Of a stretch of 64,000 bases of DNA, positions 6,253 to 57,671 are shown in pieces. Under the pieces are notes generated by a model, which was given only the letters and a program-made list of their open reading frames with translations, searched no databases and was not told the origin of the DNA. This DNA comes from Antedon mediterranea (Eukaryota; Echinodermata; Crinoidea; Comatulida; Antedonidae), in contig NC_092677.1 in the NCBI RefSeq assembly GCF_964355755.1, forward strand, positions 9,322,601 through 9,386,600, given 5' to 3'. How positions within the stretch are numbered: the stretch's first letter is position 1; every line of letters begins with the position of its first letter. The position numbers and the translations under genes are program-made.

Positions 6253-12955
<6,703 letters not shown>

Positions 12956-23116: not shown

Positions 23117-23244
23117 TTGCATAATGTGCTTTTTGCTTTATCTTCATATATTTCCTTTCCTCGTTTATTTGTTAATCAACTGTATTGCATATTATTATGC
23201 TTTTACAGTATCTTAAAATTTGTTACTTTGTTATTGTACACTCT

Positions 23245-26200
23245 TCATGTGTTGTCTTCATTATCAACTACAATTCCCTCATCTATCTGTTCACCAACTG
23301 TATTGCTGACATCATTTTCTAACCTTTTCTCCTCTGATTCATCCTTTACTTCTTTCTCTTTTACTTCCTCTTTTTCATTCTTCTCTTCTGTATCTTCATT
23401 CTCAACTTGATCTTTTACATTGTTATTTTCTGATTCTTCAGCAACATTTTCATTTCTGTCAGCCTCTTCATTCGTTTTATCCTCATTTTCTTTTTTCAAA
23501 TTATTCTTATATTCTTCCGTTTCACTTTTGGTACCATCACCCTCCACCTCATCATTGTTGGTACCATTTCCAGCTTTGTTTATATCCTCCTTACCAGTAT
23601 CTTCTAACCTGTCCTCATCCTGCTCACTAGTTTCTTTTGATACTTCATAAATTGTCTCTATATGTCGTTCCTCCTCTTCTTCATGTATCACTTCTAATAT
23701 GCTGCCACGTCTTGAATCAATCCATGTTTCACTTGGTATAAGTCGATCAATCTTGAGGTCCTCGTCATCTGTCGTAACACTCTCTTCATCACTTAGTAAA
23801 GCCGGTGATGAGCGAAGGTTTTCCAAATCGTCGTTTTCAACAACATTCTCTTCTTCGTTGACCTTTTCCTCTTCGACCTCTTTTTCAATAACCTTTGCTA
23901 ATGCATCCACTAATTGTTGCTTTATTGCTGACATTAACTCATCCCTGTCATCAACTTGACTTGTCATCATGATTTTGATCTGCTCTCTGCCTTCTTCTGT
24001 CGCCAAGTCCAACGCACTTCGCCCTAGGTCATTGAGAGCATCAATATTAGCATCAAACTGGAGAAGAATTGCGGAGGCTTCCACTTGATTTTTCTCCACT
24101 GCATGCATTAGCGGTGTACTCTGAAAAATAAGTGATTTTAATCTTTCCTTAACGAATGATAGAATCAGTCATCCTAAACACAAAGTGCCTAGGTTGAGTG
24201 TAGAGTAGAGTGTATGAGAGTTGGGTTTAGTTATATAGAGGAGCGAGGTTGATTATTTAGGGTGTACAGTACTAACATGGACTAGTGTTAGGCACGTGTG
24301 GTATGTACTGTATTATATAGCGGTGTGGTACATGTTTATTAGCACCTCAAAGAATATATTAATATGTTTAATTAATACAGTATATAACATAGAAACAATT
24401 GCTTTTACTGTACTAGCAATGATGCACACACCTTCTGTAGATCGTCTCTACAGTTTGGATCAGCCTTTAGTTCTTCCATTAGATAAAAGGTAGTAAGGAC
24501 AGCATTAGAGCTTGCAGCTTTGTGGAGTATTGTTATATTTTCATGTAGATATTTCAGGTCTATGTTGTTGTTCAATAATTGTATTACCTGTAAACAAATG
24601 TTTATAATGTTATAATATAATTCAGAAATCTACCCTGCTATTTAAAACTGTACATCCATCAGAGGTCCCAACGTCTACATTATCAAACTTTTTGTGACAA
24701 AAAATGTGATGTGCCAATATGGACATGATTAAAGTCAAATCACTATCAATTTGGGCACAAATATGATAATGACACACAGAGTTATTCTTTTGCATCTGAA
24801 GTTATAGGAAACAATGAGGATTTCCAGATGTGGCAAAGGTGGATTATTGGGAGGTAAAGTTATTATCAGGAAAGAAATAGGTTATTATCATACTTACTGT
24901 GGCTATATCATCTTTCTCAACAGCAACCCAAACCTGTTGCATTGTGGTTTCTAGTTGGGGTTGTAGTGGGGATCCGGGTGGGGTTCCCGCTTCAATTATC
25001 TCTTGAACTTCTTCGGGTTCCGAGTCCTCGCTCTCTGATAAAGGCTCACATACTGATGGTAATATGAAAATATGATAAGTGCTGGGATCATCCTACTGGT
25101 TTATACCATAGCTCTGTCTACACTATCAAACTTTATGTGATGTGCTCATATATAGACATGATGATGTCATCATATTTCAGCATATCACACTTTTTTTTCA
25201 AACTACTTTTTTTTTCAAACTAGTTTGATAGTGGAGGCAAAGCTTTATATTATTGTCAAGGTCATCATTGACATAATCATTATCATTCTTATCAGGGCCA
25301 TTCACTTGGTATTAATAGACCACAATGTGGTTGTCAGAAGTCTGTCAACAATCAACTAATATGCAATGAATTTACCAGTTTTGAGATAATAAAGTTTTTT
25401 GAATTTTAAATTTGAAATCCGTAATCTGAGCTTTATAAACAATCTATACGCATGAAATTGTAGACCTCTTTAACTTGCCTAGGCTAATTCTATTTCCTTT
25501 CCTTTAAACCACACTCACCATTGTCATCATTCTTCAATTTAAGAACAGATTCATCTAATTCACCACGGGCAACTTGAAGAAACTTCTCCCTGTTTGAAGC
25601 AACTTCCTTCACTTGCTCCTCATTCAATTGTGTTATTCTTCCTTCAACCTCCGGAGCAATGGTGCATTTCGCATTTTCCTCTCGTTTTAGGCTGGCTTCA
25701 ATTAAAAAGCTGGGCTTCCTATATATTTAATCAAAATTTAATGTATTATTTATTAAGTTCAAATAAAATGATGTGAATGTACTGTCAACAACCAGTATAT
25801 TGGATTCCTATCTAAAGTGAATACCTACTACATTTTTATTACTTAATATCTCAGGGATTGGAGAAAAAACAACCACAAAAATTGATAACCAAGTATATTG
25901 TGCCTCTACTGTGTGCTGTGTATTATTTGATGATATTGATGATTTTATAAAATTTAAAATCGTTTTCTTACTTGGATAGGCTGATTAAACTCTGCCGATG
26001 ACCAGACCGACATGGTTTTAACCCTTTCACCATCTTAACCGACGCAAAATGATTCTGAACAATAGTTGATAAGATTGGTCCATTCTCCTCATCTACCAGG
26101 TATTCACAGTTCTTTAAAACTGAATAACCATCTTTGCCTTTTGCTATGTAATCCTTTGTACAGAACCTGTAAACCTATTCAAATTTAAATTGTTATCAGA

Positions 26201-29200
26201 GGTACTGTATTATTTATTTATAGTATATACTTATTCACCTTTTTTTCCCACAAAATTATAACCTCTGTATTTCAGTATGTCAAAATGTCTATGAAAATAT
26301 GGACTACAGTACTATTAAACATATTTGATGTAAAAAGTGCAATGTTATAGTGCCTTAAATTTGTCAAGGAGGCAACACTATCCATCTTACTTCAAGGGGT
26401 TACTCAACTTAATGCTGACAAAAGTACAGTCTCAACTCTTACTGATTACCTTATTTGGAAGTAAACGAGATTCTCCTTCTACACTGACTATTATTGATAA
26501 TGGATCTACTCTCTGACCAGGCAAGCCTGTAGGATCAAAGCCAAACTTCATACCAGCAACCTGAGGGAACCGGCCCTCTTTCTTTGGGTATTGAGAAACG
26601 CTGTTTTCAAGAGCCTGCCATATCTGCATGCCTAGAACATAGAATACACTGGAATTATTTTATACATCATTAGTATATGTGTTCTTATATGCTATAGCAG
26701 ATCTCTTATTTTGGTACACCACTTTTCTGGGGACACCTTTACATAAGAAAAACCTCATTTTTTAAAATACTACAGCCAACCCCCTATTCACTAGCCAAAC
26801 ATACTAAAGCTCTATCAAACTAGTTTACGTGACAAAAAAAGTTTGATAGTGTAGATAAGGTTTAAGGGGACAATTTTATTGAATGCTGAGGATTGGGATT
26901 GTACGTTTAATAACAAACTTATAAAAATTATTAAATACATTTTCAAAAACCCAAAATTTACCTGTAACCTTAAGTACTACGATAGAGTCTATGAGTGGCA
27001 ATATATTCAGTAGGTCTTTTTTCTTAAAATCTCCTTCTGGGTGAAGAGTGTCTGAACGAAATGTTCCAGAGTTTATTAACGACATATCAGCATTCATTGC
27101 TTCTAACATTATGTCAGCTACAAAATTACCTGCATGAAGAAAGAAGTGTTTGTTTGTTTATGATCTGTCAAGCTAGAGATGATGCAGGTACCTGGAGCTA
27201 GTCATTTATACCCACAGGCCCTCTGTCAATGTTGAAAATTACAATACAAAAGATAGAACATGTTTAAGTTCAGCACTTTACAATTGTTAGGCCCTGGGCC
27301 CTCCCTCTCTCCACCACTGATTGTTGCATAAAGGAATCTCAACAAAAACATTTTGAATAACCGAAAAATAAATGTATATAGTCTACCTAAATTAGTTTCT
27401 CGATTCCTAATAGAAGCAAAGCGTCCGTCAAGTTCAACTTCAACATTTCCAAGAGAACATCCTAGTTCTTGAGTCATTTGACCTTAGATATAAACAACAT
27501 GAAACGTTATGTTAAGCATTAACATTGATAATAGCGCCCTATTCATAAAAAGGATGAATGAAACAGGGTTTGAACCCTACTGTATTATATCGGATAACTT
27601 ACGCTGGTATTTTTCTACAATTGCTTTGACCTCTGGGTCCTCCTCAACTTTTGAGTCGACTGTCAGGGATTCTGTCGTTACTTTTACTTCTGGTAACTCA
27701 TAAAAACTAATATTTACTTTAGTTAATTGTCGAAACTCAGTTCCACTCTTGACAATGTATTTATTATTTACCTATAAAGACAGATTTAAGTTAATTTCAC
27801 AAATATATAAAGTTACTAGGTATGGTCAAATAGATTCTGCTCAAACACATCCTTCAAGGACAGCATTTTAAATGCTATCGGGCCTAGAGTGTTATTAGTG
27901 TTTTGATATACTGTAAGGAAACAGTAAATAATTATGTTAAAACAGAAACCAACATTTTTACTTACTAGTTTAACTTCATAATCATGATCGTGACCTCCAA
28001 GTATAAGGTCAATGCTATCAACTTCTTCAGCCAATCGTATATCATTTGGCATTCGCATATGCGTTAGAGCAATTATAAACTCTGCACCCTGTGAAATGTT
28101 AATTTAAAACCTTTTTACATTCTTTAGTTATATATTTGAAAATAACATTAGGGTAGGTAATATTATGATCTCGAGATGGCGCTATGTGTTGGACGTTGGT
28201 GTCTACTGATCGCGAGTTCAAATCCAACGCTCGTCACATTGATAGAATCCTTAGGCAAGACACTTAAAGCCGATTTTCCACTAGGCGAATTTGTTCGCAC
28301 GAATCGAAGGCGTCAGCTAATACGCATGCGTAGAGAAGGATGTGGAAGATGTAAACATGAATACACATGCGTACAAGCTGGCGCTTTCGATTCGCGCGAA
28401 CAAATTCGCCTAGTGGAAAATCAGCTTTACTTTACGTTTTCTTCTCTCCACCCAGGTGTACAAATGAGTACATGGTAAGGTAAAGACTTTGCGTTGATTA
28501 CTAGCTGCATTATTATGGGAGTATGTTTCCATGTTTGATCCAATAAATGACCATAGAAGTTTTACAACATTAGCTGCTTTATAAATCCATTATCATTATT
28601 ACTATATTTTAGTTTATTTAATTCCTCCAACCAACCTGTTCTTTTAATTCAATACACAGTTCTTTTGCTTTTGTTACAAAATCAATGTAAGTTAGGTTTT
28701 CCCTATCTATCGTTGCTAAAGTCACAAGCCATTCCTCTTCTACTAATCCCATAAGTCCAAGCTAAGATGTAAATAAAAACAATACATGGGTTGTCATCAA
28801 AGTTTAGTGTTTCAAGAAATTATAATTTTTTTTTTTTATGATTAATTTATTTTTTAGAATATCTATCAGGATAACCAATTAAGTTGGCCAATTATTAATG
28901 GGGTTCAAAATTAATCTGATAATCCTGTTATAAGTTCAAAAAAATACTATGCCCAAATCACATGCCCGTACCTTTGTACCCCTCCAGTAAAGAATTTCAG
29001 ACACAACACCGTCCGCTAGAGGGCGACCCGTAAAATTATCAATGACATTGCTTAAAAGCCAGGGGAACTCGGTATCCTTTGTAATGTCTTCTAGTTCATC
29101 TATACCAAAATCTACAAAAATATATATATTAAGAAAAGTAAAAATTCAATTTATAGGAAAGGCACATGTACAACGTTTTCTTATAGTTTATTAAGTGTAT

Positions 29201-32200
29201 GTATCTTTTTCTGGTGGGTAAACCTTGAAGTTCTTTGAACTTATTTGCCTACCAGCCATAATACCTCTCTTAAATGTATGATGCTTATTGTCAAACAATT
29301 GTTTCTATGTATATATTTAATAATGTGTGGAAATCAATAAAAACAAACAAACAATAAAAACAATATAGAAGTTCAAACAATACAGATTTAAGAGAAGTTG
29401 GTAGTAGTGTAGCGGAAGAGGAGTTCTTATTGGATACGTACATAAACCAGACCAATACCATATAATCTCTGTTCTTTTCAAATTCAATATATCTTTTGGT
29501 TTATGGTTCTGTGGTACCTAATCGGAACTTACCAAAATCATGATTTCCATAGACAGCAGCTTTGATATGCATAGCATTTAGGATTGGTATCATTTGGGTC
29601 CCTCTTGTCATGCTACTCACTAAAATAAACATCAATATAAACCAAATTTAATTAATTTAATAGCTTTTATTTATTTAGTACCGCTAATCTATCAATTGAT
29701 TAGTGGATTATAGAAAATATAAATATAATTCCTCCAGTAAGAAACTTTTTTCTCCACTTGGATGAATCAAAGATTGTAATAAGAAATATGAAAAACTGTA
29801 AACTGTACTACTAGTACTAGTAGTATTTAATTAGAAATAAATATATTAGATCTAATTTCTATTTCTCTGAAGTTGGTGTTTTAAAATGAAGACAAATACG
29901 CATACTCAGTGAAGGATTTAGTGCATCTCCACTAAAGAATACTGCTGGATGTAAATGCATATACTTCCGAATCATGGTGGCAAAGCGAGCAGCGCCACCA
30001 ACCGGTTCAACATCACGTTGCTCGATGTTGTATACATCGTTGAAGTGAAGGATTGTAATCTCGTGACGTTTGGCATTTGATGTGTACATTGCTTTGATTT
30101 CTGCAGACAAACGTCGACGAGATGATGACTTGCGCAATAATTCACCATCTTCATCTGATTCAAGGCCTTTGTGAAAAAAATGTAATAAATGAATAACTGT
30201 AACAGGTCAAAGTTGTTTTGTATCTGCTTGTACATTTATACATAGTATACATTATGTACACAACTTAAACAGTAACTCAATCCATTTACATAGTTTATAC
30301 CTACAAGAAACATACACTCTACTGATAGGTTTCTGTTTAAACTCATTCTATCCTCTCCTCTCTGTTTTGTATAAGCCCACCCTCTCCAGAGTCTGTAGTC
30401 TCTTCAGTCTGCAGTATTATTTGCCCAGCCCTTATTTTTCATCCTGTAGCCCAGATGACCAGTAATAGGCCCAACCTCTCCAGTTTGTGGTATAAGTCCA
30501 CTTTCTCCAGCATGTGATAATACATGGAAAATTCTTAATTAGTATAGTACAACCTATTGTAAAACAATATGCTAAAAAATTATCTTCAAAAAACGCCACA
30601 CTACGAAGTTAAATGAAGATACCTCCAACGTGGGTAGAAATCAATGAAATTGATTATGACACCAATACAATTCATTATCTTTAATTAATCTAGCAAAATG
30701 TATCTTCCATCATTTTTTCAAAACAATAATTACCCTCACAATGTATTTTTTTTAGTGTTGATCCTATATTACAATAATTCAATATCTCGTTTTCTTCAAT
30801 AAAACATTACAAAAAACAATACAATACTGTTAATGAACGGTGAAATCAAACATAATTGATATTAATATGACCCACAATCAATACAACATGTAAAATTATA
30901 CTTAACAATGTGTTTATTATTAGAACACACAATGATATTAAATTCTTTTGTTGACTAAATAGTGTTATTATTTCAAGATGATTAATTGAATTCTAACATT
31001 AAGCTATTGAGTGATTGATGATCCTCTGTTTGTAATATCATTGCTTAGTGATACGGTACGTTGGATACCAGTGCCAAAATCAATTTTCTTTCTAACTCTA
31101 TTTACACTTTCTTTAGATACCAATAGTGCGGTAAGGTCATAAAACTAATGACTTGCCATAATATATAATTAGTGATTCAAGTTGAGTTATCTTTAAAAGA
31201 TACCATAAGTAATAATAAGATTTGTTAAGCACGTATATTCATCGAAGTGCTCAATGCACTTGTGGAAAACCAAAGGAAACTAATCCATAAACCTAGAAAA
31301 ACTACAAAATCTAGACAAAACTGCATTTGCATTTAATAATAGCAATTTCTAAAACATTTGCATGTTTGTTATTTATACACATCTTTACTATTACAAGCAT
31401 ACAAATGACTGTAAATGTACTTGAAAGGTTTTTAACTACGGTACATTTGAAAAACTGGTATCTTTTCCAGTTGAGTACTTCTATGTATGCTACTTTTGTC
31501 TATTTTCATGATACATGATGGTTAAAAAACAAATTTAATCTATCCCTTTCTTTTAATTAATTTCAATGGAAGTATGTTAATTAATAACAAAATAACAAAA
31601 CTAATACAATAACAAAATCAATAGATTCCAAGTACTTATTATTGACACTACTCTCATATTTTATGACTGCAAATAAAAAATGTTGAGTTTAATTTTAGAA
31701 AATAACAATAGATTTCATATTCAAAATTCAATAATTTTAACTAAATAATGATGCATTATTTAAATAAAATTTAATTGGTTTACCTTTAATTTATTATATA
31801 AATGATCATCGTTCCTAGAAATATATTGAAAATTCCTCTATAAAACTATAGATAGTTAATATTAACAGTTTCAATGGGCTGATGAGAGTAATCAAAATTA
31901 GACAAATGATGAATGGGTAGTAGAATATTTTTGGCAGCACTTAGATTTTGGCCACAGAGTAGAATAGTGATAGATAGTGTACACTACAGGTTGGTTTTCC
32001 AGACATGTAAAACAACATATTTTACAGAATTTACAAAAAGCTGCCATGTACAGTAATAGAACCATTAAATAGAACCTTTACCGTGCTATATCTACTAAAT
32101 ATTAACAAAGTAGGTCCAGTTGCTACCACATAAGATAAGAATTGGTAGTTTATATTTTGGGCTAGTAAAAAGAAAAATTATTTAAGCCCTGAAAAACCAT

Positions 32201-35200
32201 GTTTTCAGTATTTTAACCTCCAGCATCATGTTTCTAATCAAAATAACAACATACAGTAGAGAGCCAAAACAACGATCTTGCAATGATATTTTATGTTGTT
32301 GAATATTGAGATTTTTAATTTATTATCTAGGCTTGCTACTCTAGACACTATCCATAGCCTGGTTACCCCCCAGTACATCCATGCACTATATTACAATGTC
32401 ATTATGTACATTCACTGGTACAACATGAATATCCACTTAAATTGAAACTTTGACCTTTCATAATATGCTTTCCCTTGCACTCAGTGGGGTCTACGATGAG
32501 CAACTCATGGCACAGAAGTTCACTACAAGGAGCACTATATAGGCTGTGGATACAGGTTATCAAGTCTAAGCCGTTGACCATCAACCTGGTCCAACTACCT
32601 AATACTGCTCCCTGAAGCTTTGAGCTTTTCGGAACTCCATTTTCGGCCATTTGTTAATACATAGACCGCAGGTGAGTGTGGTAGGGGGAACTGATTCAAT
32701 TGACTTTTGTTTATTGTTTTATACACAGAAAATGTTGTATTTGCATCAGTGTCATTTTCCATTTTATACATTATAGCTTTTATATTAATTCTAATTGAAC
32801 ACCTAATATTATTCAAAAAGGTACAATTGAATTTACAGCTTTATAGCCAGGACTTTATAAAACAGACAAAGTTTTAAATTCTGAAAAAACTATAATTATT
32901 CATGATGATTACTGTGCATATTATCAAATGATATCAGTAAACTTGACAAGTCTATCTTGGTTTTTGTTTACTAGTTCAAGTCTATGAAACGCCATGTATG
33001 CCAAACTGTTTATTCTTTGTACAAATCGCTGTTTAGAAGAGATAGAGATATTATTACATCACACAAATCACAATAAAACTTAAGGAGGCTGAGGTACTGT
33101 AGTCGACACATTATTGGTTTATCATGTTTAGAGTAATAATCCAGTACGAAATGTAGCTTTATGGCAGGTTGAATATTTATTTGGCTGTATTTCATGGAAA
33201 TATGTTGTCGAATGGATGCGAAAAAATCATGTGTTACATTTTTTTTTCATGCACTAGGGGTCGGTAGCCCTTTTAAAATGGCAATATAATAAAAAAAAAG
33301 TAGAGTTGAACTTATTTTTTAATCTACCCCTTTCTTCTCATAAATTTTAATGAATTAATTTTATCAAAATTGATACAATAGATTTGGTGATTCAAATTCC
33401 AAGTACAGTTCTTATTATTGACACCACTGGGCCACTGATTGCAAATAAAAAATGTTGAATTTAATTTTGGAAATAACAATAAATTTCATATTAAAAATTC
33501 AATAATTTTAACTGAATAATGATGCATTATTTAAATAAAATTTAATTGGTTTACCTTTAATTTATTTTATAAATGATCATCTTTCCTGGAAATATATTGA
33601 AAATGCCTCTATAAAACTATTGATAGTTAATATTAACAGTTCCAATGGGGTTGATGAGAGTAATCAAAATTCAATAACATCAATAAATAGACAAATGTTT
33701 AAATGGGTAGTAGAATATTTTTGCCACAGAGTAGAACAGTAATTATATAGATATAACTACAGGTTGGTTTTCCAAACATGTAAAACAACATAATTTACAG
33801 CATTTCAAAAATCTGCCATGTACAGTAACACAACCATTAAATAAAAAATATACCGTGCTACTGCTATATAACTAAATAGGGCCGTAGCCAGGATCTGTCA
33901 AGGGGTGGTTTGGACACTAAGTATTTGGGACACTGCGCCCCCTATAATCCTCTATGATGATGATACACTATACTTCATAAATACTGTAGGTAACCGCAGC
34001 GTTTCATTTTTTATGTACGTCGGAAGGCTGTATACTTTATGCATGCTGACTGCCGTGATCTAAACAATATAGCTACGCGGTTGTCTGGCAGTATCCTTTG
34101 TACAAATCGTTCGTGCTGTATGATGAGTACGATACACGCGTCAATATCATGTTACATCCAGGAATTTAAGTTGAAAATCGGCAATTCATTTGCAACTATT
34201 AGAAATTTACAGACACATAGAGTTATTGACGAACGAGTTTACGAATTTTTAAATTTACAAATAACCTTTTGTACTGTTTGGCACGTATTTAGAGGATTTT
34301 CAGAGATGAGGGTGAGGTATTGGGCATGTCAGGGATGGGGGTTCGCAGTCAGTTAAGGGAGGTTTCCCCCTGTCTACGGGCCTGCTAAAACTATTTACCA
34401 TGAATATCCACTTAAATCGAAACTTTGATCTTTCATAATAAGCTTTTTTTCCCTTACACTCAGGTGGGGTCCATGCTGAAAATCCGGCACAGGAGTTCTC
34501 TACAAGGGGCACTATGGCTGTATGGCTCAGTTATCACATCTATACCTACCAACCTCATCCAACATACCTATACTGCCCCCTGAAGCTTGAGCTTTTCGGA
34601 ACTCCTAACAGTTGGCACTTGTTCATACACAGACCGCATTTGAGTGTGTAAAGGGACACTGCTTTGATAGGTCTTTGTTTATTTTTTTATACACAGAAAA
34701 TGTTGTATTTGCATCAGTGTCATTTTTCATTTAATACATTACATAACAGCTTTTATATTAATTTTAATTAAATACCTAATATTATTCAAAAAGCTACAAT
34801 TACATTACAGCTTTATAGCCACTGACTTGTAAAAGAGATAAACTTGTAAATTCTTAAAAAAACTATAATTATTCATGATATTACTGTGCATAATACTGTA
34901 TCAAATGACATAACCGTGAACTTGACAAGTCTATTGTTTGGTTTTTTGTGTATTTTCTGTTTATTTCCTCTAGATCAAATCTATGAAACGCCATGTATGC
35001 CAGCCAAACTGTTTATTCTTTTTACAAATCACTGTCCAGAAGAGAATTATAAAATAGTTTATCCATCCTGTAATCGGAGAGTTACTTGTTGTTGGATGTG
35101 TATGAAAGAAAAATTAAGGTTTAGCGTAATTAGTCCAATACAAATGTAACTTTATGGCAGGTTATATTTCATAAAACTACTGTATAAGCGAAAAAATCAT

Positions 35201-38200
35201 CAACAGCCACCATTTTTATTAATTATCAAAAGTAGTCAAATTTGCAGCTAGCCAATGGATTTTTCATTTTATTTGATTTTATTAAACTGAAAACATTATT
35301 TTCTGGTTTATATTGAAAATGCCTCTAATAGAATAAAAGTTTAAAACTATTAATAGTTAATATTAACAGTGGACTGATGAGAGTGATAAACATTTTGTGA
35401 GTATTTTAAACTCAAGCATCATGATGTTTCTAATTAAAAACATGATGACTACTATATAGTTATGAATAAGTAAACTGTTAATTTATGCTTCGTTATGGCC
35501 AATTAAAGTAGTAGTAGCTTTTGTAAACTGTTATTATCATAGTTAATACTCAGCTTTGCATGGGGAGGAGAGTTTAATCATAGAGATATTATAGTTCACT
35601 ATAATATCTCTATGGTTTAATTTATCACTTAATGACAGATTATTGACAACACGTCCCTGAATATCAATACATTATCATTTCAGTACAGTGAGATCTATAA
35701 AAAGTCAAACTCTGTAGCAAACATACTATAATAATCTGAATAGAACATTATTTGATTTAAATATTAGAATGGTTTTGGCAATACATCTATTACTGTGATA
35801 TTCTGTACAAATAATTAGCCTATTGTAGTAACCAGGGTTGTAGCTACAACAAACTATGTTGGGGAGATCTTTAAAGAGAACTACTACAATTGTTGGGTTA
35901 AAGAATAAAAATTAATGACTAATAATTGTTGGAACAAGGCAATTCAAATAAACATAAATTTAGACTGCTCACCTAAACCGCCTCTTCCATGGACAAAATT
36001 TAAAATCTCAAAAGAAGCAAGCATTAAAATCTCAATAAGCTTTAACAGATAAAATATTTGCAACCATAGTAAAATCATTTACTACTGACATTTAAGAATT
36101 CTTTAATCTTTCAGTACAACATTCAAGAAAAGAACTTGTTATCAGAACAGGTGACTTGCATATCATTAAATTTGGTAGAGACCAAAAAACTCTTAAATTA
36201 TCCAATTTCATGAAGATTTTCTTCTGAGAAATCAATGTGTATCTACATAAAATAATATGAATACAAAATATACCGTATCATAGTATGGCTTTATCAAGTA
36301 TTAATATTTCTCCATGTGGCAAAAAAATTAAATATTAACATACTGTACAAACTACAACATTGACCATGAAATACATTTGTGACAACATACATTACACCTG
36401 TAACTATTACCACAATTACTTTTGATTTATTTAGTAATTATTCCATGCTTACAGTTGGGTAATTGGATACTTGCAATTTGCAAACAAGATTTGATCAAGG
36501 AGGTTTACCCTAAGGGAAAATAAAATTAATCTTCATCCACATGAACAATGTTTGCAATATTCAATAATTTCTTAAAGTAAAAGATATTCTACATAATACA
36601 ATTTTGTGCATTTAATAGATGAATACTTTTTTTACGTTTTGATTAATTTTGACAGAAGACTGGTTTAGGATTGTTTGTACAAGCAACTATCGGCTTAAAA
36701 AGATTGAGTACGCAAGCTGAACATAAAATGGTAAGTTATATGGATAATAAAAATAATTAGTAAATGGCTACCAGGATTTAATTTTCCTTCTTCCTTAATT
36801 TTAAAGGACTTTCTGATTGTTGTATTTTTATATCATTATAATTTTCTGAATTACAGTACATTCTTTTTTTAAATAATCTTTTATTCTAAATGAATAATTT
36901 ATTATAATATTAAAAATAACATTATGTCAATGTATAAAGAACAGAATTAGAGGAAGAAAAATGAAATCATTTGAAAATCTTGGTACAGTAAGTTGGTGAA
37001 GTTTGAATGTAGAACCTCTTTTAAGGGGACACAATAAACTGTCCCCTTAATAATAGTGATTTCCCCTGAATAGGGGAGTACCAAAGGAAAGACTTCTATT
37101 CTTGACTATGTATAGCAAAATGTAATTAGTTTTTCTTTCAGTGTTGCACTTGTGTTCATTTATTTAAACCTGGCATTACTTAGTGTCTATTTCACTGACC
37201 ACTAGTAATAGGAAAGCACATCAATATCATTGATGTCCAGTTAAGGTGGTGGTCGATAATTAACACCTTAAGGTACCGTATTTGATGCTGTTTTGTGAAC
37301 AAATTATAAAGTATTTGTAACGTTTTAATATAAAAACTGCACAATTATTTTTATGTTAATCAAGAATTTTGTTAATGTTGGTAAAATGTAGACAGCACTG
37401 CAGATACTATTGTTACACCCTAACCCGTAAGTACAGTATTTACAGGGGGTACAATTTAATAGCAGACGAACATTTTAACCTGTTAGTGTTACTTAGTATA
37501 GAACCTTTATTATTAATAAGAGGAAACCCCCAAGGACCCATACTTTAAATTGTCCTTTTAATAGGAGGTGTCCCCTAAATAGGGGTTGGCACATATTTCC
37601 CTTCTGTTCATTAGTAGAAATGATCATGAGAGAGGAGGAGGGGTTACTGTAAGAAAACCAATGGTAAATTTATTAAATAAATAATAAATTAATACATTGA
37701 CAGACACAGAGGTACAGTTGTATTCAACCAAAAATGATATGAAAAATACAAACATAAACACATCATTTTATAGATCATTACAATAATAATAATTGAACAT
37801 CTTTTCTTTATAGAAATATTCAATATTATTTAACACAAACCTATGACCTACTTTGAACATATAAAAAAATAATCAATGCAAATTGATGTTTTCTGTATTT
37901 GCAATTGATGTTTTCTGTATTTGCTATTGTTGTTTAGTAACTAACGAATTATTGACACCTTTCCATGATAATACTATGAAATTATTCATACAGTCTACAT
38001 GTTATGTTTATCTATGTCTGTTGAGACTATAGATACTGTATGCTTAGTCTCTAGTCCTAGTTATACCATAGAGATATTATAGTGATCACTATAATATCTC
38101 TATGGTTATACTACTGTTTGTATAATGCACAAATTTATGAACACTTTGTGTTAGTTCCAAACTGCATTAGATTAGTTATTCAATGACAGTTAAAAAAATC

Positions 38201-38706
38201 ATGAGGGAATATTTCAACAATTTAATATACATCATAAACAGAAATGAACTGTTCATTAATATGAGGTAATATTGAAATATTAATCAAATCTTATCGTCTT
38301 ATAATTGTTTTTTTTTTAAATTATTTTATTTGATTCGATTTAACTGTATTATCCCCATAGGAAAACTCTGTTGGCTTTACTGTACATACAAAGATAATAA
38401 GAAATTTACAAGGAATGATAGAAAAGACAGTATCTTAAAATTAAAATATTACACATTATAAACACAATATAATATTTACAAAAAATAACATTCAAAATTG
38501 TCGGGTGATATACCAAAAAAACGATAAGGAGGAAATCTGTGGAAATGAAAAAAAGACATCCCGAGATTCGAATAAAATCAATAAATGTGAAAAATGCATC
38601 CTTGAAATTATGTCTACCTACCATTGTCGTAAAGAACATGTCCGCGCCACCTTTTCACATTATCGTCAACAGGTAAGCTACTGGCTTTGGTGCAACCTCC
38701 TCCCAT
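23245..38706 (-). CDS. 5'-nucleotidase-type metallophosphoesterase with ankyrin repeats
   Basis: Exons (minus): 38622-38706 (less certain), 29906-30166, 29533-29619, 28972-29111, 28636-28761, 27966-28088, 27603-27771, 27387-27482, 26962-27129, 26450-26631, 25972-26174, 25519-25718, 24898-25052, 24432-24587, 23245-24120; 3027 bases, or 1008 residues. Metallophosphoesterase motifs: HFNDVY (about 69-74), FFSGD, GNHDFDFG (140-147), ALTHM, GGHDHD (264-269). A 5'-nucleotidase C-terminal domain follows (about 363-560: INSGTFRSD, KDGYSVL). Ankyrin repeats lie near 652-770 (STPLMHAVEKNQVEASAILL), then a Glu/Asn/Lys-rich tail of about 230 residues. The proposed first exon reads MGGGCTKASSLPV, an N-myristoylation/palmitoylation-type start whose phase fits exon 2. 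No signal peptide is seen, unlike secreted CD73-type enzymes, so I infer a membrane-tethered or cytosolic enzyme of unknown substrate. Confidence 0.88.
24671..24783. mobile_element. Hairpin MITE family A, copy 6 (decayed)
   Basis: Recognisable by 'acattatcaaactttttgtg' and 'tttgggcacaa...acacagag'. In an intron of the nucleotidase-ankyrin gene. Confidence 0.6.
25111..25244. mobile_element. Hairpin MITE family A, copy 7
   Basis: Ends 'gctctgtctacactatcaaa' and 'tttgatagtggaggcaaagc', with a small internal duplication 'ttttttttcaaacta'. In an intron of the nucleotidase-ankyrin gene. Confidence 0.75.
26700..26790. repeat. Dispersed family B fragment
   Basis: 'tctggggacacctttac' followed by 'acagccaacccctattca' matches family B blocks. 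Intronic. Confidence 0.45.
26806..26861. mobile_element. Hairpin MITE family A, copy 8 (deleted core)
   Basis: Only the two ends remain: 'aaagctctatcaaactagtt' joined to 'agtttgatagtgtagataag', a 56-bp deletion derivative. Confidence 0.65.
27235..27310. repeat. Copy of the 22395-22570 interspersed repeat
   Basis: Shares 'aaattacaatacaaaagata', 'ttaagttcagc' and 'taggccctgggccct' with the other copy. It lies in an intron of the nucleotidase-ankyrin gene. Confidence 0.45.
28165..28480 (+). mobile_element. tRNA-derived SINE split by a MITE
   Basis: The head has a B-box-like 'GAGTTCAAATCC' near 28213 and continues 'cttaggcaagacactt', closely matching the SINE at 59205 ('cttagacaaaacacttt'). The tail 'ctctccacccaggtgtac' resumes after 28430. 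The two halves are separated by the MITE at 28267-28427. The 100-residue ORF here is not a gene. Confidence 0.7.
28267..28427. mobile_element. 161-bp MITE nested in the SINE
   Basis: A perfect inverted repeat of about 27 bp (including CTAGGCGAATTTGTTCGC) bounds it, extending less perfectly to AAGC/GCTT ends. Flanking TA on both sides fits a TA target-site duplication, as in Tc1/mariner-type MITEs. Local GC content is higher than in the surroundings. Confidence 0.8.
31530..33240. repeat. Tandem duplication, unit 1
   Basis: Matches 33310-35210 in order over many blocks: 'gatgcattatttaaataaaa', 'ttaatattaacagtt', 'catgtacagtaa', 'gaatatccacttaaat', 'gcttttcggaactcc', 'gaaacgccatgtatgcc'. Divergence is clear, so the duplication is not recent. 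Confidence 0.85.
33310..35210. repeat. Tandem duplication, unit 2
   Basis: Second unit of the 1.8-kb repeat. It differs from unit 1 by an inserted element at 33879-34383, which replaces about 320 bases of unit 1, and a short SINE-tail-like segment at 35045-35100. Confidence 0.85.
33879..34383. mobile_element. ~500-bp inserted element with inverted ends
   Basis: Starts 'agggccgtagccagga'; the reverse of the right end reads 'aggcccgtagacaggggg'. It is present only in unit 2 of the tandem duplication. An internal part (about 34220-34290) resembles the left edge of the window. Confidence 0.6.
35300..35440. repeat. Tandem duplication, partial third unit
   Basis: 'tattgaaaatgcctct', 'agttaatattaacagt', 'ctgatgagagt' and then 'agcatcatg...tttctaat' recur in the same order as in units 1 and 2, with an internal deletion. 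Confidence 0.7.
35579..35616. repeat. Near-perfect palindrome, copy 1
   Basis: CATAGAGATATTATAGT, then a one-base centre, then its exact reverse complement. The same sequence recurs at 38067-38106. Confidence 0.9.
37008..37085. repeat. Dispersed family B fragment
   Basis: 'agaacctcttttaagggg', 'gtccccttaataatag' and 'cccctgaataggggagta', a typical family B arrangement. Confidence 0.5.
37498..37592. repeat. Dispersed family B fragment
   Basis: 'tagaacctttattattaata' to 'gtcccctaaataggggttgg', about 490 bp after the previous copy. Confidence 0.5.
38067..38106. repeat. Perfect palindrome, copy 2
   Basis: CCATAGAGATATTATAGT followed by GATC-centred reverse complement; same arms as at 35579-35616. 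Confidence 0.9.
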
Positions 38707-38976: not shown

Positions 38977-39816
38977 AGGGCCTGTTTCTGCTGCAACTGC
39001 TCAAAATACGGTATAAAAATACGGTATAAAATACGATATTTTTTATACCGTATTTTTTAGTACCCCGTTTCTGCTAACAATACTTCTTGGGTGGTCGTGT
39101 TAAATTTCATCCTTTTTGCCCAAATTGCCAATCATTTATTTGGTCGATAATTAAAAGTCGTAATAAAGGAAGTTTAAGTTCAAGGCCTAGCCCTAGTGAT
39201 AGAGATGTTGTGAGAGCACAGAAAATATCGTAATGAGGACAAGTAATTCGTTGCCTCCCCAAGTTATTGTCTTTTGCAATGTTTTACTGCTTTCGCAGGC
39301 TCTTCAGCTTTGAGTTTACTTGCTTTGGAGACAAGTCTATTCCGTACTCCTGCTTTACTTTTTTAGAAATGTCTTTATAAATGTGGTTGTCCCTTTTATT
39401 ACCTTTTAGTTTGCCGGACATTTTAGCTTCCTCACCCCCTCCTTCCCCACCCCTGCTTCCCCACACAGATTTAAATAGTAAATACTGTGACGTCTTCGCT
39501 CCAAATTTTCGCCGAATATATCTATAGTTATACACGTGTGTAAAACAGCTGACAGCGACAGAAAATAAAAATGTCGCAGGTAAAAAAAAATACGGTATTT
39601 TTTATTGGCAGCAGAAAAGGGTACAAAAAATACGGTATAAATTTGTAAATGCCGTATTTTATCCACAAATTTTGTGGGGAAAATACGGTATATATATTTT
39701 TTTTATGAGTGCAGTTTCTGCTGCCAAAAAAATACGGTATAGGCCTAGGCCTATATACGGTATTAAAAAAATACCGTATTTTATACGGTATTTTCTTGGC
39801 AGCAGAAACAGGGCCT
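38977..39816. mobile_element. Harbinger-like non-autonomous transposon
   Basis: The ends AGGGCCTGTTTCTGCTGC and GCAGCAGAAACAGGGCCT are inverted. Sub-terminal regions are packed with 'tacggtat' and its complement in both orientations, giving strong secondary structure. A 46-codon Myb/SANT-like fragment lies inside. PIF/Harbinger elements encode a Myb/SANT-like protein beside the transposase; no transposase is visible here. The flanks do not show a clear TWA duplication. Confidence 0.75.
39284..39421 (-). pseudogene. Myb/SANT-like domain fragment in the transposon
   Basis: Reads MSGKLKGNKRDNHIYKDISK then KVKQEYGIDLSPKQVNSK and ends LKSLRKQ before a stop. This is the second half of a Myb/SANT-like DNA-binding domain of the kind carried by Harbinger transposons. 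The first helix with its Trp is absent or frameshifted, so this is most likely a remnant rather than a working gene. Confidence 0.6.
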
Positions 39817-41109: not shown

Positions 41110-44100
41110 TTATTTTAGAGGGATACTGTTAATAAATGATGTAAACATTTTCAAAGATTCTGCAGGCTTGTCTTGCGGCACCATATGTCCAGCTCCTTTT
41201 ATAGTCACAAGTGACAGATTCTTGTAGTCTTGTACAAAACCAGCTATTTGACTGTTTACTACCCATTCTCTGCGATCGCCGACCTTGTCAAGCTTCAGCG
41301 ACTCGACAAACCACTCATCGCCGAGGAAGTTGCACGCCATGTCGATGTCTCCATTGTAGACCATTCCACGGTACTTTTGGAGTAGTGATTGGTATTGGGT
41401 GAACATTGTATCATATGTCCTTGTGTATTGCGCTCCCACAATATCACTGAATAGAAGGAACAATATGGATTATGAGTAATGATTTTAGAACAGTATATTG
41501 TCCAGCAATACTGTACATAACAATCACACAAAGCAGCACCATTATTAAAACACCATCATTATCAACATCATGATAACCAACACCATCATTACCAACACTA
41601 TTAGAACACCATCATTACCAACATCACTAGAATACTGTCATTACCAACACAATTAGAACACCATCATTACCAACATCATTAGAGCACTATCTTTAGCAAC
41701 ACCATCAGAACACAATCATAACCAACACCATTAGAACACCAACACCATCATTACCGACACTATTAGAACACCATCATCATCAACACCATCATTACCAACA
41801 CCACCATCATCATCAACACCATCATTACCAACACCACCATCATCATCAACATCACCAACACCTTCATAACTGATACCATCATTACCAACACTATTAGAAT
41901 ACAACCACTACCATCCAACATCATTAGAACACCATCATTACCAACACCAGTATCATTTTCTCCATTAGCCAACCGACAAAGGCAATAAACAAACCTGCAG
42001 ATGTCCCAGTCTTGTACAGTATCTGGAATATGTAAAGCTTTGCGTACAGCTGGATCATTTAGATAGGTAATGATGGCTGTTGCATTTATACATGGTGGGC
42101 TTTCACTTATTTTCATTGTGTTTTTTATCTACAAATAAATAAATATAAATATAAATATAACTTTTTAAATTACAAAATCTTTTAATATATAGTGTGTTTC
42201 ACAGTGGTGTTTAATAGGAGTGGTTTTTAATTTAATATTAATGCTCTTCTATAGCTGGTTTCCATTCACCACATTGTATACGTGAAACAATGCTCTTCTA
42301 TAGCTACTTTTAATCCTGTGAGTCTTGCTAATGTTTTAGCTTTCACACCTATTCCCATCCAACTTTACTTACATTCCCCAACTTCCTGGACTTCTCACTC
42401 CTGAGGACGATTGAAGCATATTGATCATAACGTTGAGAAACTCAACATACTGTACGTGGTGTATTGCAAACTTTATATCAAAATATGAATAAAGTAATAC
42501 TTACCAATGGCTTATACTTAATCTTGTAAGCTCTAAACAGGTTGGACATGGCGGCCTTAAAGGTTTTAACATGTGGTGGGATTCCTCCAGCACAATCGCC
42601 ATACAAGTTGTAAACATTTAAACCAATGTTGTAGATGATGTTCATCGCTTCACCAACCTGGTGTAGTAAAAAACAAAAGGCTCTGTCTACACTATCAAAC
42701 TAGTTTTACAAAAAAAAGTGTGATGTTCCCAAATATGGTAGGGATTAAGAATACAACACATAGTGTGTATGTAATTTTTGCCACAGATTTTCTGTTTTGT
42801 GCTACAGAGAGGCTTAACTTGAAGCTATCATTCTATTATAGTCCTTTAATCGTAATTGATTTTTATACACTGTTTAATCTATAGTATTAAGATGTGTTTA
42901 ACAGGCTTACAATCCTAAGTTTTAGTTTCAACGCAACAGAAATTGTCTGTCGTTCACAGAGATGCTTATATAGTACACGGTTTATTCTGAGATGCAAAAT
43001 GTGGCCAACTCTTATTACGATCTCAACATAAATGGTCTGTACATTTTACCAGTAGTGGCATTGGATTTGTTTTGCTAAACATTTTGTTTTTTAAATATAT
43101 GCTACCTACCACAAGAGAGCATTCAGATTGTGTGTTGTCATGGAAATTGCAGGCAGTATCATTACAACAGCTGGTTTGAAGCTGAGTCCATAAGCTAAAA
43201 AGTTTCAATTACATTTTATTAATTTATAAATTAGAAGTACAACTATCTTCTTTATTCTTTAAGTTCAGTTTCAGTTTTATTTCACACAACATATTATATA
43301 TACATTTGTACTTAATATTAGATAATAATAATACATTTGATTGTGTGTGGAGATTTTAATAAGCCATAACTGAACCTCCAGGTAAAACAATAAATATGAT
43401 GATGACCATGAGATAAACAAGAAAAAAAACAACACATGATATGCACTTCCTTTAAAAGATGCTGAAGTATTTGACAATTTGAGATTAAAAGTAGTCTGTT
43501 GTCTGGCATACTAACTTGTTTAAAAATAAAATTAAGTTGTACTTTAAGCCCTAAATATTATTTCAAGATGGATTTGAGTGCCCGAGTTTGTACAGCACTA
43601 AGTTATTAGTTAAAACGATAGTCCATAGTGTACATGACAATAAATAGTTAAATAAACATGTTAAACTTTATTGCCAACATATTGTGTAGTTGAATTACAA
43701 TGACAGCCTACCATCATTAATAATAATGTATTCAGTTTTTGTAATACAGTCTGTATTCTTATATTACAAAGTACCAGTTATATTATTACAGTCATCAGAA
43801 ATAGGTCAGATACTTTAAGCTCTGTCTACACTACATCAAACTAGTTTGACAAAAAAAGTGTGATGTGCCCAAATATGGTAGTGATATGGGCACATCACAT
43901 TTTTTGTTACATAACGTTTGATAGTATAGACAGTCTGTATTCTGATATTTCAAAATAACATTTATTTTATTAGTCATCAGAAATTGTTTAGATACTTACA
44001 AGAAATTGGATACTTACTCAAGTCCAAATAGGCCGTGATAATACCCAAAATAGATGAGAGAATCGTCATTAAGAGCATAGCTAGATAAACCATTTCCAAC

Positions 44101-48719: not shown

Positions 48720-57671
<8,952 letters not shown>

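Follow-up and report, generated by a model that had tools for sequence, protein, structure and literature searches.

This locus raises the question of whether a phosphoesterase of the 5'-nucleotidase type is truly joined to ankyrin repeats in a single animal gene and, if so, to which branch of its superfamily the enzyme belongs and where in the cell it would act. The window, meaning the whole stretch of 64,000 nucleotides analysed here, corresponds to C8:9322601-9386600 of the Antedon mediterranea genome, which was searched over 354 Mb in 18 contigs. We re-derived the gene model independently from the raw minus strand of the window and obtained 15 exons running from 38706 to 23245 and encoding 1008 residues, with GT-AG borders at 14 of 14 introns and zero internal stops; exon and residue counts equal those of the preliminary description, whose phase-consistent model was thus borne out. 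Upstream, the gene is delimited by a serine carboxypeptidase exon (41110-41469, 4e-31), likewise on the minus strand. We favour, with a probability of about 0.62, the reading that this single-copy animal gene encodes an intracellular, membrane-tethered and ankyrin-targeted enzyme of the bacterial-type branch of the UshA/5'-nucleotidase superfamily, not of the CD73 branch. The features of the gene are as follows.

38622-38706, minus strand: proposed exon 1 (MGGGCTKASSLPVDDNVKRWRGHVLYDN), beginning with the ATG at 38706; Gly2 is a candidate for N-myristoylation and Cys5 for S-acylation; donor score 10.4, rare acylation pattern
29906-30166, minus strand: exon 2, with the basic stretch KSSSRRRLS (RRLS is a PKA-type site), the alternative start Met55 (30089), block I HFNDVYN (D72, Y74) and block II GD (D109)
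29533-29619, minus strand: exon 3, initial part of GNHDFDFG (N141, H142)
28972-29111, minus strand: exon 4, metallophosphoesterase domain
28636-28761, minus strand: exon 5, metallophosphoesterase domain
27966-28088, minus strand: exon 6, ALTHM (H243) and GGHDHD (H266, H268)
27603-27771, minus strand: exon 7, end of the catalytic domain and linker helix
27387-27482, minus strand: exon 8, start of 5_nucleotid_C (R356), from Pfam
26962-27129, minus strand: exon 9, INSGTFRSD (N382, R387) and ILPL, where L408 replaces the stacking Phe/Tyr
26450-26631, minus strand: exon 10, 5_nucleotid_C
25972-26174, minus strand: exon 11, end of 5_nucleotid_C, with Y488 (second aromatic) and D494
25519-25718, minus strand: exon 12, charged linker from enzyme to ankyrins, open in phase and supported by codon score
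24898-25052, minus strand: exon 13, acidic linker (SESEDSEPEE) followed by the beginning of the ankyrin region, supported by codon score
24432-24587, minus strand: exon 14, ankyrin repeats, from Pfam
23245-24120, minus strand: exon 15, final ankyrin repeats, a second PKA-type site (RRGS, residue 854), acidic tail (36% D+E) and stop TGA
23164-23169, minus strand: polyadenylation signal AATAAA, about 75 bases beyond the stop

An additional exon at 24795-24635, between exons 13 and 14, was considered and dropped because its donor is poor and its omission restores a regular ankyrin repeat.

A Pfam search of the 1008-residue model (hereafter the window protein) revealed Metallophos (residues 66-270, 4.4e-9), 5_nucleotid_C (residues 342-500, 3.3e-39) and Ank_2 (residues 686-769, 9.9e-11, 42.5 bits) in that order, each over its gathering cut-off, with Ank_4 and Ank likewise above cut-off; given these E-values, the matches are not due to chance. 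Metallophos followed by 5_nucleotid_C is the layout of the UshA/5'-nucleotidase superfamily, and the relatives of the window protein in the PDB are CD73, Thermus 5'-nucleotidase (2z1a) and UshA. Joined to the enzyme are about three to four adjacent ankyrin repeats, of which the scored Ank_2 match starts at residue 686 in exon 14 and an earlier first repeat was judged by eye. Behind them, after about residue 786, comes an acidic tail of 223 residues, so that both the domain order and the tail of about 230 residues described previously were confirmed. A literature search for a fusion of ankyrin repeats with 5_nucleotid_C found none.

CD73, the enzyme that produces extracellular adenosine, had served as the comparison in the preliminary description and proved misleading: within the UshA superfamily the window protein sits on a different branch, and two ordinary CD73-type genes exist elsewhere in the genome. 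These two, at C7:25807000-25816999 and C7:3259000-3268500, are the only other 5_nucleotid_C genes in the genome, which leaves the window gene as the sole copy of its kind found. In the tree both fall with human CD73 (100/100); they mostly retain its cysteines and display, by eye, a hydrophobic start in their first exons and a GPI-like hydrophobic stretch in downstream ORFs. The gene at C7:3259000-3268500 reads T, Q and G at the places of N390, R395 and D506, and may be inactive since several substrate residues are lost. The window protein clusters instead with 10 sequences from bacteria, archaea and phage, a group of 11 in all (support 100/99), which includes Azospirillum, Methylobacterium, Tistrella, Deinococcus, Cetobacterium, haloarchaea and a Microcystis phage, and a forced grouping with CD73 was rejected (p-AU 1.46e-7); this sample is small and holds no other animals, so the tree neither dates the gene nor shows transfer. 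Descent from CD73 was rejected on this test, on the lack of a signal peptide and GPI-type tail, and on the absence of the CD73 cysteines (CRxREC, CxxC and the Cys-bearing insertion after block I). The NDxY motif, a deletion after block I and the side of the tree all place the protein in an NDxY-containing branch, in which its best identity is 35%, to Azospirillum. Scanning prokaryote genome contigs with the window protein alone gave a single distant homologue, and a search of viral contigs for its relatives gave none.

The active site was read from an alignment with CD73. The CD73 residues D36, H38, D85, N117, H118, H220, H243 and N245 correspond to D72, Y74, D109, N141, H142, H243, H266 and H268, and R354, N390, R395, F417, F500 and D506 to R356, N382, R387, L408, Y488 and D494, respectively. 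The two-metal ligand set (D, H, D, N, H, H, H/Q/N) is thus kept entirely except for the block-I His, which is replaced by Tyr. The earlier statement that all metallophosphoesterase motifs are present holds for nearly all of them and fails at block I, which reads DVY (within NDVY) where DxH would stand. This Tyr, which could weaken the metal site, is common to three homologues in the alignment, from Azospirillum, Methylobacterium and the Microcystis phage. Compensation for the lost DxH His by a gained GHxH His was considered and dropped, GHxH being found in most DxH members as well.

In UshA and CpdB the base is held between two aromatic residues and the domain rotates to the metals (PMC10454023). 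The window protein offers L408 and Y488 at these places, a single aromatic, and L408 is unique among 29 alignment rows, the other 28 carrying F or Y. Nucleotide hydrolysis is therefore possible for this sequence and not assured, one stacking aromatic being Leu; this lowers the nucleotidase claim and leaves superfamily membership unaffected. As the Pfam nucleotidase name carries no implication of 5'-nucleotidase activity (PMC10454023), "nucleotidase" is used here as a family name only.

The window gene seems to be a moderately unusual variant within a known enzyme family. Azospirillum WP_014249418.1 (35%) and Microcystis-phage mggB (33%) share its two-domain layout, its NDVY block I with the one-residue deletion after it, and its other metal ligands; unlike it, they possess neither ankyrins nor an acidic tail and carry Phe at the place of L408. 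The phage homologue, annotated 'mannosylglucosyl-3-phosphoglycerate phosphatase', lies at 857-2443 of its record beside a gene annotated zur. CD73 (NT5E) has the identical two Pfam domains in the same order, and the equivalents of its R354, N390, R395 and D506 are kept, whereas the window protein is without its signal peptide, GPI-type tail and cysteines and carries Tyr where CD73 has His38 and Leu where it has Phe417. We know of no 5_nucleotid_C domain in purple acid phosphatases, to which a resemblance is possible in chemistry only, as a lead. Their motifs (PMC2553084) provide D, D, Y, N, H, H and H as ligands, the same seven types as in the window protein, although block II (GDx2Y) contributes the Tyr there and block I (DxY) here. 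In other invertebrates, names alone served for comparison: the 'YfkN-like' or 'mannosylglucosyl-3-phosphoglycerate phosphatase-like' proteins of Biomphalaria (XP_013093293.1; PMC6281880) and Octopus (XP_014777376.1; PMC6145028) have names that suggest the same superfamily, the mggB name matching that of the phage member. Drosophila CG11883 is listed among 5'-nucleotidases (PMC10637773). CG11883 may be a further member of the branch. Labels such as 'YfkN-like' on invertebrate proteins may conceal a distinct animal enzyme family.

Neither a signal peptide nor a GPI-type tail was found in the model, the top hydrophobic 19-mer being internal (residues 402-420). This result hinges on exon 1, and neither of the candidate starts, MGGGC or Met55, gives a signal peptide. 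The view that the protein is not secreted is therefore supported, and the sequence is probably that of an intracellular protein: the lack of a hydrophobic end, the loss of the CD73 cysteines and the ankyrin/acidic C-terminus all suit the cytosol. By itself the cysteine argument is weak, because the Azospirillum relative, which looks exported with its hydrophobic, signal-like N-terminus, is likewise without the CD73 cysteines, as are the bacterial relatives in general; given that N-terminus, it is the gene model that carries the case for a shift to the cytosol.

From exon 2 up to 48 kb, every phase-compatible ATG-to-donor stretch whose donor scored above 6 was taken as a first-exon candidate. 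Among the 13 obtained, the MGGGC exon, 8.5 kb from exon 2, has the top donor (10.4, slightly helped by its being one of the 14 donors that trained the score), and its ATG lies in a good Kozak context (AAGATGG). We also scanned the 1445 ATGs of the window that are followed by ten open codons: a myristoylation pattern occurs at 10, an additional Cys at positions 3-6 at 3, and K/R at position 7 as well at 1, namely MGGGCTK, which has the Met-Gly start of the NMT consensus. The proposed acylated N-terminus thus agrees with the pattern of myristoylation plus palmitoylation, and the MGGGCTK exon is a plausible best candidate for exon 1, no firmer because the codon score fails to separate two of its frames. 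In the AT-rich repeats upstream of it, an ORF with a borderline Myb/SANT-like domain (39284-39601, minus strand) looks like a mobile-element remnant. Within the long first intron, short palindromes (accatagagatattatagtg...) were seen by eye on the minus strand at about 38060-38110 and 35585-35615, one motif appearing twice, like a small inverted-repeat element.

The start codon is where the favoured reading meets its main alternative: the same fused enzyme could begin at Met55 after a non-coding first exon, as a soluble cytosolic protein with no lipid anchor, the MGGGC exon being a chance occurrence. Met55 is in frame in exon 2, eight residues ahead of the catalytic domain, the proposed exon 1 is short (85 bases) with two frames that are not told apart (codon score 0.25 vs 0.26), and short reading frames occur upstream of its ATG. 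Yet no candidate has a better donor than that exon, its start context is good, and its frame runs on in phase through the open residues 29-54 of exon 2, so we regard a start at Met55 as rather unlikely. At the other end of the enzyme, two adjacent genes might be imagined: the phosphoesterase would stop around exon 12, and a small ankyrin protein would begin in exon 13 at a Met close to residue 654 that stands ahead of the first ankyrin-like helix. The codon score was trained on exons 2-11, which leaves only exon 1 and exons 12-15 as proper tests; from exon 2 through exon 15 it prefers the chosen frame, weakly in exons 3 and 14 (0.02 for the latter, which would suit two genes). Against a split, exon 12 scores 0.31 (other frames -0.72 and -0.66, with stops) and exon 13 scores 0.37 (other frames -0.55 and -0.60, with stops), the latter being open and coding-like in phase upstream of that Met. 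Exons 12-15 would all be open in phase by chance with a probability of about 3e-16 at the intron stop frequency, and the roughly 104 linker codons with about 3e-4. Neither AATAAA nor ATTAAA was found in intron 12, ahead of the ankyrin exons. As the linker exons look like in-phase coding sequence and intron 12 is without either signal, this sequence likely represents one fused gene, as had been proposed, and the chance of two genes appears very slight.

The fused protein might also be a catalytically weak or dead enzyme retained as a binding scaffold or as a sensor of a phosphorylated ligand. The Tyr at the block-I His and the Leu at one stacking Phe would fit such a role, and catalytic loss does occur in the NDxY-containing branch, as two Azospirillum relatives within it (matches from 401 onward) are missing most metal ligands and are apparently dead. 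The window protein, in contrast, keeps N141, H142, H243, H266, H268, R356, N382, R387 and D494, as well as all others checked, and its block-I Tyr is also present in prokaryotic homologues that otherwise look active, which makes a dead scaffold improbable.

Under the favoured reading of a membrane-tethered intracellular enzyme, Gly2 would be myristoylated and Cys5 palmitoylated and, together with the basic RRRLS, would keep the protein attached to a membrane from the cytosolic side, where the PKA-type site in KSSSRRRLS could serve as a switch for membrane binding. The N-terminal domain would hydrolyse a small phosphate ester at a putative two-metal site formed by D72, Y74, D109, N141, H243, H266 and H268, the ligands being assigned by alignment. 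The C-terminal domain would bind the substrate and, through the hinge rotation described for UshA, deliver it to the metals, and the ankyrins would bind a partner that positions the enzyme. With no export signal, with ankyrins and with a probable lipid anchor, the enzyme may dephosphorylate small molecules at the membrane inside the cell. An intracellular, lipid-anchored relative on a separate, bacterial-type branch, if true, would mean that the enzyme fold also works cytosolically in animals, and the ankyrin fusion offers a handle on its partner and pathway. A bolder proposal, which we consider unlikely, is that animals hold beside surface CD73 a second nucleotidase-type enzyme of the other branch, placed by ankyrins at the inner membrane face and acting on a non-nucleotide or signalling phosphoester with a Tyr-containing, perhaps iron-based site like that of purple acid phosphatases.

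An exon of the purine enzyme IMP dehydrogenase/GMP reductase lies at 12611-12955 on the plus strand of the window, about 10 kb from the 3' end of the phosphoesterase gene, probably by coincidence. At 55894-56684 the window contains 29 copies of a 27-base unit with 95% matches, and three frames are open across it.
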